Assembly: GCF_000330505.1 (NCBI RefSeq)
Contig: NW_004191777.1
Location: forward strand, 339,493-403,492
Reading direction: 5' to 3'
Length of the DNA stretch: 64,000 bases
Source of the DNA: Entamoeba invadens IP1
Lineage: Eukaryota; Evosea; Mastigamoebida; Endamoebidae
This document shows positions 3,946 to 64,000 of the stretch, in pieces (within the stretch, counting starts at the first letter, position 1; each line of letters opens with the position of its first letter). The position numbers were made by a program, and so were the translations under genes. Below the pieces are notes generated by a model, which was not told the origin of the DNA, did no database searches, and saw only the letters and a program-made list of their open reading frames with translations.

Positions 3946-4370
3946 ATAGAATAAGATAAAAAATGAATAAATTACATCAAAAAGCAACAACTTACCATAC
4001 CAAATTTTAAAAAACAAAAAGCACAACAACAGAACAATATTCATGACTGTTGTATTATGAACACAAAGTGTGGTTTTTTGTACACTTTATTTAAACCTGA
4101 AATGTCTAAGAATTGTACTTTTAAATAGTGTTGTCATTATGGAAAATATCATTTCCCATTTCATTTGACATTTTAAAACAAGATCAAGATAAATTTTTTA
4201 TTGAATAAATTAAACAATGTCAACAATTTTAACCATAAAACAACTTAAAAGTAAATACCAGAGCAATCAATAATTTGTTACATTTTGTATCATTGTGCTA
4301 CAACATCAAAAGAATTACCTGTATTACAATTTTTCAATTGAGGGACATGTCGATTACTCAATATCTTTAT
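3946..4370. other. AT-rich region without recognisable gene
   Basis: AT-rich sequence between the GC-rich island and the next coding relic. I see no ORF, RNA or repeat that can be supported. Confidence 0.5.
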
Positions 4371-7409: not shown

Positions 7410-8175
7410 TATTATTAAAAATAAAATCTAAATTTATTAGTTTTTTTGAATGTATTATAAATTATTGCTTAATTTGATATAAATATAATACAGTGTGATC
7501 AACTAAAATGAAATATAATTTTTTATTAATAAATAAATTATCGACTCTAATTAACGTTGAATTTACAACTTAGAGGTAAAAAAAGAGTTGTTTGCAATGG
7601 TTATTTTGATTATTTTTGTAGATGACAAAAATATAAATAAAAAATTAATAAAAATACATAAAAAGAACTATGTTAACTTAGAATATCGACTTTGATATGT
7701 GTTACAAATATTAAATATTTAGTGTCGAAATAGAGAAGCATTGTTGAAGATGTTGTTACTACATAAAATAACAAAAAAACATGTAAAATAAAATAAAAAT
7801 CACAAATAAATGATTTTTTTATAAATAAATTATATAGTTTATACTTTACTTTTCACAAAAAATATTTCTTTAAATTATTTTAAAAAATAAAATTAACCTT
7901 TTTAACAATTATTACTTTAAAGCCAAAATTAATAATAAACTATAGTAATTTATTTATTTAAAAAATACACTGAACAATTATCATGGAATTAAGAACACAA
8001 AATTATTACTAACATATAGTTTTAAATAATAAACTTTATTAAAAAGAAACCAAAAAAATAGAAGAAAGAACTGGGGGAAGAAGGTTTTTCTTAAATAGAT
8101 CGAAAAGAAAAATAGCTAATGAAAGAGATTTGAAATTCCAAGAAAAATGAGATTTGAAACTTAAAGGCATAATTC
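7410..8175. other. AT-rich intergenic region
   Basis: No ORF or RNA can be supported. The last 100 bp become purine-rich before the RasGEF first exon. A minus-strand ORF at 8091-8342 overlaps exon 1 of that gene and was rejected. Confidence 0.5.
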
Positions 8176-59634: not shown

Positions 59635-61233
59635 AATGGTTTTTATAATTATCAAATTTATTATTAAATTTTTTATTGTAATTTATTATTTTAATAAAAA
59701 TTTTTTATTAAATGTTATAGTAATATTGGGTTTAATACAAATACTATAACTAAATGGTTATATTATGAAGTAATATAATATAGTTTNNNNNNNNNNNNNN
59801 NNNNNNNNNNNNNNNNNNNNNNNNNNNNNNNNNNNNNNNNNNNNNNNNNNNNNNNNNNNNNNNNNNNNNNNNNNNNNNNNNNNNNNACATTCATTAACAT
59901 TGATGTTTGTGAAAGCGAGAACCAAGAAAATGGTTTGTACATAATTTGGATTCACAGGGATACAAATTTCGCAACTTACCAATATTTTTTATTTTTCTAA
60001 GCAAGGTTCCCCATTTTTTGGTCTGTAAAAAAATTACACCAATAAAAACTTTTAAGGTTTCTTAAACTTTATAATATTTTTCTTTTTTCCATTTTGCCTA
60101 AGGAAAAAGAATCAGAAAATTAAAAATGTTAAAATAAAAGCCAAAAAACGGATAATTTTACTAATTTATATCGATAATTAGTATCAATTAATTTTGAAAA
60201 AAGAAAAATACTTCATATTTATAAATTTTATAGGCTTTTCTATGTTTAAAAAAAGATATTTATTAATGATAAAATAAATCAGGATAAAATTAACCTAATT
60301 TATAAATAAAACCGTTTCTTTTCTTTTTTACTTTAAAACACTGAAACGACAGGACTATGTCCTGACAACCAAAAATAGAATATTTTTAAAGAGAAATATC
60401 TTGACAAAAATAAAAGGGAACAATAATATTTTACGATTTTTCTAATCGTTATCTTCTCGTCTTCATCTGCTCAATTACGGCTCATTATTTTCTAAGCTCT
60501 TCTTCAGCCATTTTTTCATTGTTTTTATTCTTTTTTTCCTTTCTTTGTTTATCGTCTTCTCGTCATAGACTTTTATACATTAATAAATTTCATTTCTCAT
60601 TTTTTTGAAAAAAGTATAGAATCTCTATTAGAGATCAATTGTTTACGTTTTATTTTTCAACTGTTCTGAACATTAATTTTAATTTTGTTTTGTAATAATT
60701 TTATTTATTAACTATGGGGTTTGTTAGTAAATATTCACTTGTTATTGTTTTTGTGGATGGTTTTGACAATAACCAATAATAATGTGTTTTAATAATTTAA
60801 AAACGTATTAAACACACCAAAAACGTGTCGTGTATTATACGTTACAACTTCAAAACAAATCAAGACTAGAGTGACTTTCCTCTTTTAATTGAATCAAACT
60901 GGGTAGTCCATGTGTATAATATCGAAGCGGTGTAAGCTGCGTTATACTCATTCAATTAATGTTTTAATTGTTTTTATTATATTAATAGTTTGTAAAAAAG
61001 TTAAAAATAACTTGAAATGTTTAATAATCGTAGTCTATTTATAATTTGTTTTTCGTCATTGTTTTCGTAACTTTCCTTAAAAAATACATAACCTGTGGCT
61101 AAACTTTGATGTTTTTCCTTCCAAAATATTCAAAAAGAGCTTAATCAATGCTGTTGTCGTTGTAGTAGTTTATAAATTATGTGGATTTGTGGGCACCCAT
61201 TTTAATCAATATTTTATCATAATTTAATTAAAT
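59635..61233. other. AT-rich region with assembly gap, no gene seen
   Basis: Includes the N run 59787-59886. CAGGAC-TAT-GTCCTG near 60351 is a 6-bp hairpin. A slightly GC-richer patch at about 60830-60950 has no recognisable structure. No ORF supported. Confidence 0.5.
59787..59886. other. Assembly gap (100 N)
   Basis: Exactly 100 N. Sequence to the right differs in character from the TMK side, so the join across the gap deserves caution. Confidence 0.99.
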
Positions 61234-61258
61234 CGCGAGAAGGACGCCGAGATCTGAA
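61234..61258 (-). repeat. GC-rich repeat module (CAGATCT...GCGTCC...CTCGCG)
   Basis: On the minus strand this reads CAGATCTCGGCGTCC then TTCTCGCG, matching 63973-63994 (CAGATCTTCGCGTCC then CCTCGCG). It is strikingly GC-rich against its surroundings and marks the left limit at which the foreign-looking segment can be recognised. Confidence 0.6.
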
Positions 61259-61272
61259 TTTAATTATAGATC

Positions 61273-61325
61273 AATATTTATAGTAAATTTATAGTAATAT
61301 GATTTTTTTATCTTCCTTAAAATGA
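61273..61325 (+). promoter_or_regulatory. Shared 5' leader, copy A
   Basis: About 50 bp ending at the ATG of the ORF at 61323 (ATTTATAGTAAATTTATAG...ATATGATT...CTTCCTTAAAATG). The mirror copy upstream of the minus-strand gene at 63843 matches at nearly every position. Conservation right up to the ATG suggests a promoter or 5' UTR shared by genes of one element. Confidence 0.6.
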
Positions 61326-61845
61326 CTAAAGGGATAATCAATTCCGCTTTTATAAAGTATATTGAGCTTTGTCCTTTACAGTTCTTCGATCCTCAGTCAC
61401 GAAGTGAAGTAAAACTAATTAATAATATAGTGTTGGATGAAGATATTGATGAATTTATAGATGATTCTGAAAACAAACTATTAGTGAACGAGTAAGTGAA
61501 TATAATGATGAACCCAGTGATGAAAATGTTATAGAAAATTATGATTATTCTAATGGTAATGATAATAATAATGATGAATCAAGTGAAGAAGATATAAATG
61601 ATTATGTTTATTATAATGAAGAAGATAATAAAGTTGTAGCTAACTTGGAATGTGATTATACTAAATTTGAATCAAGAATCAATAAATTTGAAGAATATTT
61701 CAATAAGTTTATTAGAAATAACAATATAAAAGATGTGATAATTAAATGTTATGTTAGTCCTAATGTTATTCAAAAGGGTTATGATATATCGTTATATTTA
61801 AATAATCAAGATAATTATCAAAAAATTATCTTGATTTTTATATAA
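61323..61845 (+). pseudogene. Foreign-looking ORF with one frameshift
   Basis: Starts MTKGIINSAFIKYIEL. At about 61494 the frame ends in TAA, but a neighbouring frame continues with very similar acidic Asp/Asn/Glu-rich text (SEYNDEPSDENVIENYDY) to 61845. Joined it would be about 175 residues. Codons are almost all A/T-ending (AAT, GAT, TAT), unlike the C/G-rich third positions of the amoebal genes in this window. No domain recognised. It may be a degraded viral or transposon gene, or a sequencing slip may have split an intact one. Confidence 0.5.
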
Positions 61846-62124
61846 TTTAAAACTATATGAAATATGGTTATTGTAAGGGAGCTGATAAACAAATATTTTT
61901 CATTAATGAAATTTCAGTTCATGTAATCTAATAGATATTTACTGTTATTTTAACCTGAGTGTTTTTTTTTCGTAAAAACAAAGTAATAAAATTTACATCT
62001 TATCTGAAGATATCTATTGAGAATTTTATTTATATAGTTATTATAATAATACATTAATATTACTTTATTAATAATATATTTAGTAATGTATAAATAATAT
62101 ATTTTTATTTTTATCTTAATATAA
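61846..62124. other. Spacer between foreign-looking ORFs
   Basis: AT-rich, no gene. It ends TTTTTATCTTAATATAA before ATG 62125, partly like the shared leader. Confidence 0.4.
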
Positions 62125-62670
62125 ATGAGTACAGATATCACTTCTAAATTAAAAACAAAGTCCTTAAAAACATTTTTCAAAGATTTGTTTTCTTCTAACA
62201 AAAAAATCAAACTACAAAGACGGACCCATTAAAACAAATAGATACTTCTGAAATTATAAAAGTAAGAAAAACATCACTCCAAAGAGTGAACGATGTAACA
62301 CCAAAAACAGTATTTGGTATGAGTTATTCTCCAAATGAAATTGATGAAAGTGAAGATGAATATGATATTGAGCAATGCATCGACACATCTAAAAGATGTG
62401 GTGAAAAACATTCTGAGCAAAGTATCATGCCGAAGGCGAAACAAAGACCAAACTTTATCTGATAAGACTTCTAAACATATTATTGCATTACAGAAAATTA
62501 TAAACAAATACAATTTAAAAGAAATATATATGTTAAAACAATGTAACAAAGAAATCAATAGATATATTAATAATAATCCAGAAGTTGACTTAATCAATAC
62601 AAAAGATTTAAATCTACTATTTATATTAATGGTTATGTATTTTATTAAATTAAAGGTAAACAAACATTAA
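62125..62670 (+). pseudogene. Foreign-looking ORF carrying in-frame repeat modules, two frameshifts
   Basis: Starts MSTDITSKLKTKSLKTF. An A7 run at about 62200 shifts the frame to text ending ...EIDESEDEYDIEQ. Two GC-rich repeat modules then read through in frame (CIDTSKRCGEKHSEQSIMPK, 62370-62435). A second shift near 62450 leads to LSDKTSKHIIALQKIINKY and a terminal hydrophobic stretch. Codon use is A/T-ending except in the repeat. No family recognised. The modules match intergenic repeats at 63300 and 63950 in reverse orientation. Confidence 0.5.
62370..62436 (-). repeat. Two GC-rich repeat modules inside an ORF
   Basis: Module 1: GAGCAATGCATCGACACATC then a hairpin CACATCT-AAA-AGATGTG; it matches the reverse complement of 63947-63980. 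Module 2: TCTGAGCAAAGTATCATGCC then GAAGGC; it matches the reverse complement of 63301-63326 (GCCTTCGGCATGATGCTTTG then CTCAGA). Confidence 0.75.
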
Positions 62671-63295
62671 TTAAGATACAATATAGAATTACAAAAATGA
62701 TTTAAATAAAAAAATCAAAAATATAGATGGCGAAAAGGAAGAATAATTAGAATTATAACTTAATAAAATAGAAGAATGAGAAAACAATCAAAATTAATTA
62801 AAAGATAATATTATTACTAAGATTATTCCTATAATAGAACATTATACAGATCGGTACGAAACCCCTATCGTTTTCTTAAACCCCTCAAGTCGTCAATTGA
62901 TAAGTCGAAACCAGAAAAAATATTTTATATTTAGAAACGACATTTTCTGATGACGATTGTAAGCCAACTCCACAAACGCGTTGTTGAAATTTGTTCTCCG
63001 ATGTCACTTCTTACGGTTTTACACTAGACGCGACTTGTTATGATCATATATTGAACAGTTATAAACAATTGTAGTTTTTTATGGTTTTTATTTTTATATT
63101 TTGTTTTTGTTTTTGTTATACAACATTTTTTGTCCAATTTTTTATCGTACTTCTTCGGGATGACGTCGTAATTAATTTCTATGAAGGCTTGAGGTGTTTA
63201 AGACAAATTGATGGATTTTTACCATACCTGTATTACTGTTAATAATTTAGATGTTAATAAATTCTTTGAGAATTAATTAATCTTTGTTAACGATC
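62671..63295. other. Region without supported gene
   Basis: AT-rich to about 62850, then more balanced composition (62850-63060). Both strands are full of stops. Fragmentary protein-like text on the minus strand near 62990-62930 is too short to assign. Confidence 0.4.
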
Positions 63296-63298
63296 ATT

Positions 63299-63332
63299 CA
63301 GCCTTCGGCATGATGCTTTGCTCAGATCTGAG
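63299..63332 (+). repeat. GC-rich repeat module (CAGCCTTCGGCATGATG type)
   Basis: CAGCCTTCGGCATGATGC followed by TTTGCTCAGATCTGAG. This is the intergenic, opposite-orientation copy of module 2 in the ORF at 62125. Its first part recurs at 63497, 63517 (inverted) and 63907. Confidence 0.75.
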
Positions 63333-63493
63333 GTGAGTGATGAGTCGCGCACTTAAAATACGCTATGCACCGTAATGATTCATCAAATAACAAATCACCA
63401 TATTTTTTGGAATTGATTCACATAATATATTAGTACTATATGAAATTGTTTTAGATTTCATTGTTTTTTCTGAACTTCTCGTTCCTTAGTATC

Positions 63494-63531
63494 TTTCAGC
63501 CTTCGGCAAATCATCATGCCGAAGGCTGAAA
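63494..63531. repeat. 15-bp perfect hairpin built from the CAGCCTTCGGC repeat
   Basis: TTTCAGCCTTCGGCA, 8-nt loop, then the exact complement. On the minus strand it encodes the last residues (FQPSA) of the ORF at 63843, and the TGA stop lies in the loop at 63514-63516. The hairpin therefore coincides with that gene's 3' end. Confidence 0.85.
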
Positions 63532-63843
63532 TGATTTCATACGGTTCACATTTAACTTTGATTTTATATACTTTCCATGTTTTATTTTTTTAGTATAAGC
63601 TGGTTTTATACTTCTTATACCAGATGGCTTTAAGATAAATATTTCCTTTGATATTTCATTATAATATAAATCTTCATTGTAACCGTCAATGTTAATAATA
63701 TGTTTACATGTAGTCAGATTTTTATTTTTAAAATGAGATATTAAATCATTTTCTTCTTCAAAAAGTTTAATATCTTTTTCATCCCCATATACGACTCTAA
63801 GAGTCTGAGGAACTTTTAAGTTCTGTACAACTTTAGTCGTCAT
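63514..63843 (-). CDS. Foreign-looking small protein, unknown function
   Basis: 109 aa from ATG 63843 (MTTKVVQNLKVPQTLRVV). This start is preferred over an in-frame ATG at 63864 because the shared leader ends precisely here. Acidic/helical first half (DEKDIKLFEEENDLISHF), then IINIDGYNEDLYYNE and a Lys-rich tail KKIKHGKYIKSKLNVNR. The last five residues and stop are supplied by the GC-rich hairpin repeat. Codons are A/T-ending as in the two broken ORFs nearby. It is the only intact ORF in this segment. No family recognised. Confidence 0.6.
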   Translation of the reverse strand: MTTKVVQNLKVPQTLRVVYGDEKDIKLFEEENDLISHFKNKNLTTCKHIINIDGYNEDLYYNEISKEIFILKPSGIRSIKPAYTKKIKHGKYIKSKLNVNRMKSFQPSA

Positions 63844-63893
63844 TTTAAGGAAATAAATAATCATATTAATATAAATTTACTATAAATATGTAT
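63844..63893 (-). promoter_or_regulatory. Shared 5' leader, copy B
   Basis: The minus strand reads ATTTATAGTAAATTTATATT, AATATGATTATTTATTTCC, then TTAAAATG, nearly identical to 61273-61325. Likely promoter/5' UTR of the ORF at 63843. The two copies face each other across 2.5 kb, so they also behave as inverted repeats. Confidence 0.6.
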
Positions 63894-63905
63894 CAAAAGG
63901 ATAAT

Positions 63906-63994
63906 TCAGCCTTCGGAATAAATACATCGCAGATGCGGACTCCACATCCTCTGGATGTGTCGATGTTTTGCTCAGATCTTCGCGTCCCCTCGCG
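63906..63994 (+). repeat. Compound GC-rich repeat cluster at the window end
   Basis: In order: CAGCCTTCGG, a CATC-GCA-GATG hairpin, CACATCC-TCT-GGATGTG hairpin with TCGATGTTTTGCTC, then CAGATCTTCGCGTCC and CCTCGCG. Each piece recurs elsewhere in 61.2-63.5 kb. The cluster may continue beyond the window. Confidence 0.7.
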
Positions 63995-64000
63995 TTTAGT

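Follow-up and report, generated by a model that had tools for sequence, protein, structure and literature searches.

Towards the right-hand end of a 64,000-nucleotide stretch of the Entamoeba invadens IP1 genome (NCBI RefSeq assembly GCF_000330505.1, contig NW_004191777.1, positions 339,493 to 403,492 of the forward strand; hereafter the window), the sequence changes its character at about 61.2 kb. An initial annotation, made from the letters alone, suspected the remnant of a giant virus or a virus-like mobile element there, perhaps on a misjoined contig. What is this segment, and how could it have spread? We found it to be a dead and frameshifted member of an interspersed family of elements with terminal inverted repeats (TIRs), extending from window position 61164 to ~64066. 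The family is probably a coding, non-autonomous satellite of Polintons (Mavericks), equipped with TIRs and terminal proteins of its own and borrowing polymerase and integrase.

The genome searched comprises 35 Mb on 233 contigs, which are numbered here with the prefix C, the window being C194:339493-403492. With window positions 61200-64000 as the query, the search gave 139 matches, in which the element was mixed with a separate miniature inverted-repeat transposable element (MITE) lodged in the window copy. Outside the MITE, the family occupies at least 22 loci, one of them in the window, spread over 19 contigs; the count is a lower bound because 40 of 85 candidates were scored. A misjoin is not supported, as the unit sequence lies on 18 further contigs and the 100-N gap at 59787-59886 sits 1.3 kb outside the element. 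Eleven copies with both ends (26.1 kb) were used for the work on TIRs and hairpins: nine measure 1.5-2.6 kb, one 3.6 kb with ~1 kb inside unmatched, and the window copy 2.9 kb including its MITE. Gene A, read inward from the left TIR, is followed by gene B; from the right TIR a third gene runs inward, of type C in many copies and of type C' in the window and at two helicase loci on C186. A leader that the initial annotation had noticed in common among the open reading frames (ORFs) indeed recurs as a 62-nt inverted match of 79% (window 61247-61308 and 63855-63916), in inverted orientation, as the outer genes both have their start within a TIR.

The TIR arms within one copy are 97-100% identical in 8 of the 11 copies, whereas identity between copies is lower, mostly 67-92% over at least 200 nt. 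This pattern fits ends that are renewed by replication. At up to two mismatches, the TIR end AGTAGTATATAAATTNTG was found 65 times forward and 51 times in reverse in the genome, compared with 18 and 15 times for the reversed pattern. Facing pairs of AGTAGTATATAAATT-type ends bound the small family and also a 12.2-kb element, 4.5-kb polymerase elements, and elements of 1.1, 3.8 and 7.4 kb. Moreover, an exact 4-bp target duplication was present in 10 of 16 own flank pairs, the 12.2-kb element included, but in only 10 of 240 swapped pairs, and own-flank matches at 3, 5 and 6 bp numbered 0, 0 and 1 of 16. One of the 4-bp matches, ATAT at C9, is self-complementary within inverted flanks and is to be discounted. 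Copies with a missing or degenerate end were left out of the 16 pairs, as was the helicase element at C186:393209-397096, whose flanks are an inverted duplication; the flanks of the window copy, TTGT and ATGT, hold no matching 4-bp duplication. Judged by TIR homology and by a target duplication equal in length to that of the co-resident Polinton, the small elements fit the description of non-autonomous Polinton derivatives. The suspicion of a virus-like mobile element was well placed: TIR ends, leader and 4-bp duplication are those of the 12.2-kb Polinton-type element, and the N-terminus of its protein-primed-type polymerase is matched by genes A and C.

The 12.2-kb element, at C134:236401-248607, is full-length. 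Between TIRs with a target duplication it carries a family B polymerase in one open frame of 1287 amino acids (aa), which was tested against Pfam as two pieces and matched DNA_pol_B_2 at 6e-30 and 7e-12. Its ORFs gave no confirmation of the integrase and capsid families; a 543-aa ORF was called integrase-like by eye, an ATPase-like ORF matched Pox_A32 at 0.006, below the cut-off, and small ORFs are also present. The 4.5-kb elements at C23:151383-155890 and C213:70430-74996 contain a family B polymerase in pieces (DNA_pol_B_2 down to 5e-34) and two small genes. A 3.8-kb derivative at C186:454324-458141 has an ATPase-like gene and the N-terminal part only of the polymerase, a 522-aa ORF that is open without the catalytic domains (stretch L096, 2140-3708) and that gave a ratio of nonsynonymous to synonymous substitution rates (dN/dS) of 0.28 over 495 codons against the full element. 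The 1.1- and 7.4-kb elements are located at C28:112088-113192 and C60:22769-30163. No polymerase ORF was found in the window element or among the small-copy ORFs read, while such ORFs are present in stretches L091-L094; likewise, no integrase ORF was found among the small-copy ORFs read, and the integrase-like ORF occurs only in the 12.2-kb element.

At C186:393209-397096, ends that are related but diverged enclose a superfamily 2-type helicase in two frames, a name that rests on motifs seen by eye and on sub-threshold SNF2 and DEAD matches. Searches of PDB sequences with the helicase returned nothing, and a scan of viral contigs with helicase relatives as the only queries gave no confirmed relative. 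The helicase-bearing variants showed a dN/dS of 0.33 in one pair. The helicase itself (stretch L047, 21-1957, equal to C186:393520-395456) had 10 relatives at 26-34% identity on metagenome contigs, nine of these contigs measuring 3-23 kb and the tenth 363 kb. Further relatives of these were located in Bacteroidales and Bacilli assemblies, including nine loci (L070, L071, L073, L078, L080, L081, L087, L088 and L090) on JAGAYY010000025, a 376-kb contig of a Bacilli metagenome-assembled genome. A transfer from gut bacteria is possible, judging from these sequences. The 257 bp outside the TIRs on each side of the helicase element (C186:392952-393208 and 397097-397353) form a perfect inverted duplication, which may be either a real flank capture or an assembly artefact.

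The presence of polymerase, helicase and terminal-protein-like domains on separate elements with related ends could also point to a multipartite linear DNA virus or plasmid system, in which 4.5-kb polymerase, 3.9-kb helicase, ~2.3-kb A-B-C and 12.2-kb pieces integrate separately. We regard such a system as unlikely. One 12.2-kb element has polymerase, integrase-like and packaging-ATPase-like genes together, the last two named by eye or below the cut-off, so that a partition is unneeded, and these data show no extrachromosomal form.

The alternative that we prefer, a Polinton satellite with its own terminal proteins, draws on the homology of genes A and C to the polymerase. Gene C matched residues 195-324 of the Polinton polymerase ORF at 7e-14 in a pairwise comparison. 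In the reverse direction, an own-genome search with the polymerase N-terminus retrieved gene C at six mini-element loci, on C59, C9, C30, C58, C201 and C154, with E-values of 3e-10 to 3e-8 and always over residues ~194-325. Gene A aligned with gene C over 44 columns (hhalign probability 96, E-value 4.8e-9) and with the polymerase at 5e-6, although the profile match alone was weak, with a probability of 40. These alignments make homology to one and the same N-terminal region of the polymerase strong for gene C and moderate for gene A. Gene C' is kin to the small convergent gene carried by the 4.5-kb elements, its C186 copy matching at 3.4e-7 and the window copy at 0.005; a protein search with the minus-strand ORF at 63514-63864, which is gene C' of the window, gave nothing. 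Pfam returned nothing at gathering level for the A, B and C genes in other copies, and Pfam and PHROGs gave weak matches only for A, B, C and C'.

Gene B is conserved within the family. A profile search with it found three proteins, all from Entamoeba invadens IP1, the best with 92% identity over 37% of the query, and its kinship with a 98-aa Polinton protein is unproven. Its structure model was poor, with a predicted local distance difference test score (pLDDT) of 55 and a predicted template modelling score (pTM) of 0.27. Estimated by the NG86 method, which here includes decay after insertion, dN/dS was below 0.7 in 34 of 36 pairs for gene B and in 16 of 21 pairs for gene A; for gene C, values ranged from 0.65 to 2.78 in pairs too close to tell. 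The substitution pattern of genes A and B shows purifying selection.

The model of gene C had a mean pLDDT of 63, with 70-83 at residues 21-90, and a pTM of 0.60. It consists of a helix (2-23), strands (24-27 and 32-36), a helix (41-61), two strands (68-74 and 77-83) and a helix (87-102) and, further C-terminally, a loop modelled at low confidence that contains a helix (104-116), then a strand (138-143). The core topology is therefore strand, helix, two strands, helix, loop, strand. When this model was compared with the PDB by Foldseek, 41 of the best 50 rows were Y-family DNA polymerases, two of them presumably so, with no row significant and with many rows being one and the same enzyme. VIA-align, which only re-ranks the Foldseek rows and is a second look at the same matches, placed 42 Y-family polymerases among the best 50 rows, the three best rows being others and no row reaching significance. 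The aligned range in polymerase eta was ~316-429. The best viral row was an adintovirus DNA polymerase with an E-value of 0.094, and a phi29-type terminal protein was absent from the fold rows listed, which is uninformative either way.

This fold comparison preceded our comparison with the published terminal-protein fold. In the sections of PMC11071308 drawn on here, the N-terminal domain of the polinton polymerase is described as a terminal protein that folds like the little finger of Y-family polymerases, with four strands and two helices; its linking tyrosine or serine is placed after helix 2 and before the last strand, close to a glycine or proline. The predicted topology of gene C matches this description. 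Furthermore, inspection by eye located a conserved tyrosine within DYD in the corresponding loop of the gene C copies and, in the four gene A rows that reach there, a tyrosine within HGYCKGK or HGYCKRK; both are candidate linking residues on sequence grounds. Because homology, the order of structural elements and the fold rows agree, it is likely, though not proven, that genes A and C encode terminal proteins.

As a Polinton satellite, the family would keep Polinton-type TIRs as replication origins and integrase sites, and it would encode stand-alone terminal-protein domains inward from its ends (A, and C in many copies) together with protein B. The satellite terminal protein would prime synthesis at the TIR ends, the polymerase of a co-resident Polinton or of a 4.5-kb polymerase element would copy the linear DNA by strand displacement, and the Polinton integrase would insert the product with a 4-bp duplication. 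We infer the priming, the supply of functions in trans, the use of the integrase and the linear intermediate, as well as any role of protein B and of the hairpins described below. One observation weighs against this scheme: the integrase-like ORF of the 12.2-kb element had no Pfam or PDB-sequence match, and a relative of it gave two chance-level rows.

The main rival concerning the role of A and C is that they are truncated replication proteins acting as repressors or decoys, which would hold the parent element back by binding to Polinton ends or to the polymerase; the small elements would then spread as ordinary deletion derivatives. Truncated-protein repressors are known in other transposons. 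The 3.8-kb derivative, which retains the polymerase N-terminal part only, would suit this role, as would the selection on gene A. We nevertheless consider repression rather improbable. The genes start inside both TIRs, the nearly identical TIR arms of most copies fit active replication of the small elements, and some variants carry the helicase, for which selection was estimated in the one pair mentioned above.

The initial annotation had described GC-rich palindromic modules as absent from the first 61 kb of the window; the modules are real and form hairpins with 3-nt loops, and their absence there is nearly but not exactly right, as one exact GCCGAAGGC core lies in 1-61163. At up to one mismatch, the window has four occurrences of CAGCCTTCGGC, each within 63.3-63.9 kb, compared with 0.07 expected. 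The hairpins counted had loops of 3 nt, stems of 5 or more and three or more G/C, with the expectation taken from shuffles. The 11 copies hold 42 of these hairpins, compared with 0.93 in shuffles (maximum 3 in 30 shuffles), whereas loops of 4, 6 and 7 nt are at chance level and window 1-59786 has 10 versus 8.9 expected. A count of 5-nt loops (17 versus 0.8) was dropped, since 12 of the 17 were 3-nt-loop hairpins recounted with one pair opened. As the copies share descent, the per-copy test with 200 shuffles is what matters: the observed count was reached by 0 of 200 shuffles in 7 of the 11 copies, by 1 of 200 in one copy, and by 12 and 14 of 200 in two others, and one copy has no hairpin. Hairpins of this class are absent from the 12.2-kb element, from both 4.5-kb elements and from 3.4 kb of a helicase locus, which makes the enrichment a property of the small elements.

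The hairpins are 21 in distinct sequence, and 18 of these read C-NNA-G across the loop; among host hairpins, 7 of 89 do so at a stem of at least 4 and 3 of 10 at a stem of at least 5. Hairpin units stand in frame in different genes and orientations, for instance within one copy in both gene A and gene C; the short GCC-GAA-GGC unit is also found at the helicase and, in reverse, within the integrase-like ORF of the 12.2-kb element. A genome-wide search for ATGCCGAAGGC..GA gave 33 rows, corresponding to 23 distinct sites, compared with 2 rows for the backwards control; 22 of the 23 sites lie in or beside marked element loci, the exception being C8:332577. Further module positions were noted at 2553-2569 and 3978-3994 of stretch L039 and at 7898-7927 of stretch L093. 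C-GNA-G hairpins are unusually stable in single-stranded DNA, a property that would suit a single-stranded intermediate. More tentatively, one could imagine an Entamoeba community of linear protein-primed replicons with common ends, a set of interdependent elements that divide polymerase, helicase, terminal protein and integrase among them. Its smallest members would be true satellites with primer proteins of their own, evolving under a traffic of in-frame C-NNA-G hairpins that are generated or selected on single-stranded replication intermediates.

Could the family have been described before under another name? PMC2657916, in the part that concerns it, characterizes Ei_ERE1 (GenBank EU099445) as a repeat of E. 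invadens whose ends are undefined and which has one ORF, of 327 aa. The account there gives Ei_ERE1 no large TIRs and a single ORF, whereas the present family has TIRs and two to three ORFs; on this comparison of descriptions only, identity of the two is very improbable, although Ei_ERE1 may be a name for part of the family.

The foreign look of the segment was accurately observed. The GC content at third codon positions (GC3) is 0.10 for gene A (61498-61842), 0.29 for gene B (62335-62670) and 0.20 for gene C' (63514-63864), in line with the A/T-ending codon style reported, and the amoebal genes indeed differ, with a mean GC3 of 0.43 (range 0.25-0.51) over 18 ORFs from window 1-59786, each 200 aa or longer. 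Bulk composition is less distinctive than the codons: the GC content of 500-bp pieces in the element, 0.17-0.30, is within the range of the rest of the window (5th percentile 0.186). We rejected composition alone as proof of foreignness, other parts of the window being equally AT-rich. Despite its AT-rich, acidic and Asn-rich frames, an integrated giant virus has practically no chance of being the source, as the segment is a discrete TIR unit recurring at at least 22 loci with Polinton-type ends and target duplication, hallmark genes or a long colinear block were not encountered, and the gene B profile search led to E. invadens proteins only.

The window copy itself belongs to the decayed members of the family, its TIR arms being only 74-92% alike. 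The annotated segment is real, but its left boundary is at 61164 rather than at 61234, and its right end, seen in stretch L048, lies 66 bases beyond the window. The left TIR (61164-61326, plus strand) starts with AGTAGTTTATAAATTATG, carries the leader of gene A and is homologous to the TIR ends of the other copies and of the 12.2-kb element. The frameshifts noted earlier were confirmed. The terminal-protein-like gene A (61322-61931, plus strand) is broken over three frames (61322-61495, ~61498-61842 and 61857-61931), and its homology was tested on clean copies elsewhere. The 5' and middle part of gene B (62125-62846, plus strand), coiled-coil-like in a low-confidence model, has several frameshifts and stops; the own-genome protein search matched gene B at C194:401593-402340, which is window 62101-62848. 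Gene B is interrupted by the 384-bp MITE (62847-63230, plus strand), which the initial annotation had left unseparated from the element. It is bordered by TA at 62845-62846 and 63231-63232 and has 19 other matching places in the genome, and other element copies pass from 62846 directly to 63231 with one TA. Past the MITE, the 3' end of gene B (63231-63277, plus strand) is contiguous with 62846 in other copies at 89-96% identity.

On the minus strand, gene C' (63514-63864, 116 aa) runs inward from the right TIR (63838-64000), which is cut by the window end and runs on to ~64066 in L048. Triloop hairpins from the count are CACATCT-AAA-AGATGTG in gene B (62384-62400), GACTC-TAA-GAGTC in gene C' (63793-63805) and CACATCC-TCT-GGATGTG in the right TIR region (63943-63959). 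A GCC-GAA-GGC module in gene B (62429-62437; C194:401919) reads MPKA, and the motif search located a GCC-TTC-GGC module between genes B and C' (63299-63309) and a facing pair of GCC-GAA-GGC modules at the 3' end of gene C' (63497-63528). Just to the right of the right end of the element, L048 4911-5909 holds a transposon that carries a DDE_1 (PF03184) endonuclease.

E. invadens is the host of a published 16.5-kb Polinton (PMC3511435), and Ei_Polinton is listed with 5 complete and 126 incomplete copies in the portion of PMC2657916 devoted to it. Protein priming by Polintons rests on structural prediction, and several DNA virus groups are thought to derive from the Polinton lineage, according to the passages of PMC11071308 on these points. 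In the main text of a 2023 survey of endogenous viruses in protists (PMC10120064), the word Entamoeba is absent. Our literature searches found no publication on non-autonomous, miniature or satellite Polintons; RepBase was outside these searches, so a description in that database only is possible. Non-autonomous transposons and stand-alone terminal proteins are each known, and their combination in a Polinton satellite is new as far as these searches reach. If the reading is true, satellites join the Polinton lineage. A satellite having TIRs and terminal-protein domains without a polymerase would then tell which parts are needed in cis and would offer a small system for testing priming, end specificity and trans-integration.

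Cytoplasmic linear plasmids of the pGKL type and transpovirons have inverted ends. As presented in the relevant parts of PMC11071308, both resemble the small family in being linear parasites that are protein-primed or helicase-bearing; the small-family copies differ in being integrated with target duplications. Adenoviruses, tectiviruses and a coral polinton with a separate terminal-protein gene share with the family a terminal protein that is a gene of its own (PMC11071308, in the parts cited above), whereas here the terminal-protein-like gene sits on an element without any polymerase. With Polintons proper, the family shares the ends, leader and duplication length of the 12.2-kb element and the homology of A and C to the polymerase N-terminal region, but it measures only ~2-2.6 kb, lacks polymerase, integrase, ATPase and capsid genes, and carries its terminal-protein-like domains as stand-alone genes. 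MITEs and other non-autonomous DNA transposons are similarly short TIR elements that borrow enzymes; the small family is, however, coding, with genes under purifying selection, and its borrowing would cover replication as well as integration. Finally, Rickettsia palindromic elements are small palindromic units that stand in frame inside unrelated genes. The hairpins described here occur in a eukaryotic transposon family and have tight 3-nt loops, mostly C-NNA-G, and these in-frame modules would represent a eukaryotic case of palindromic units spreading within coding sequence.

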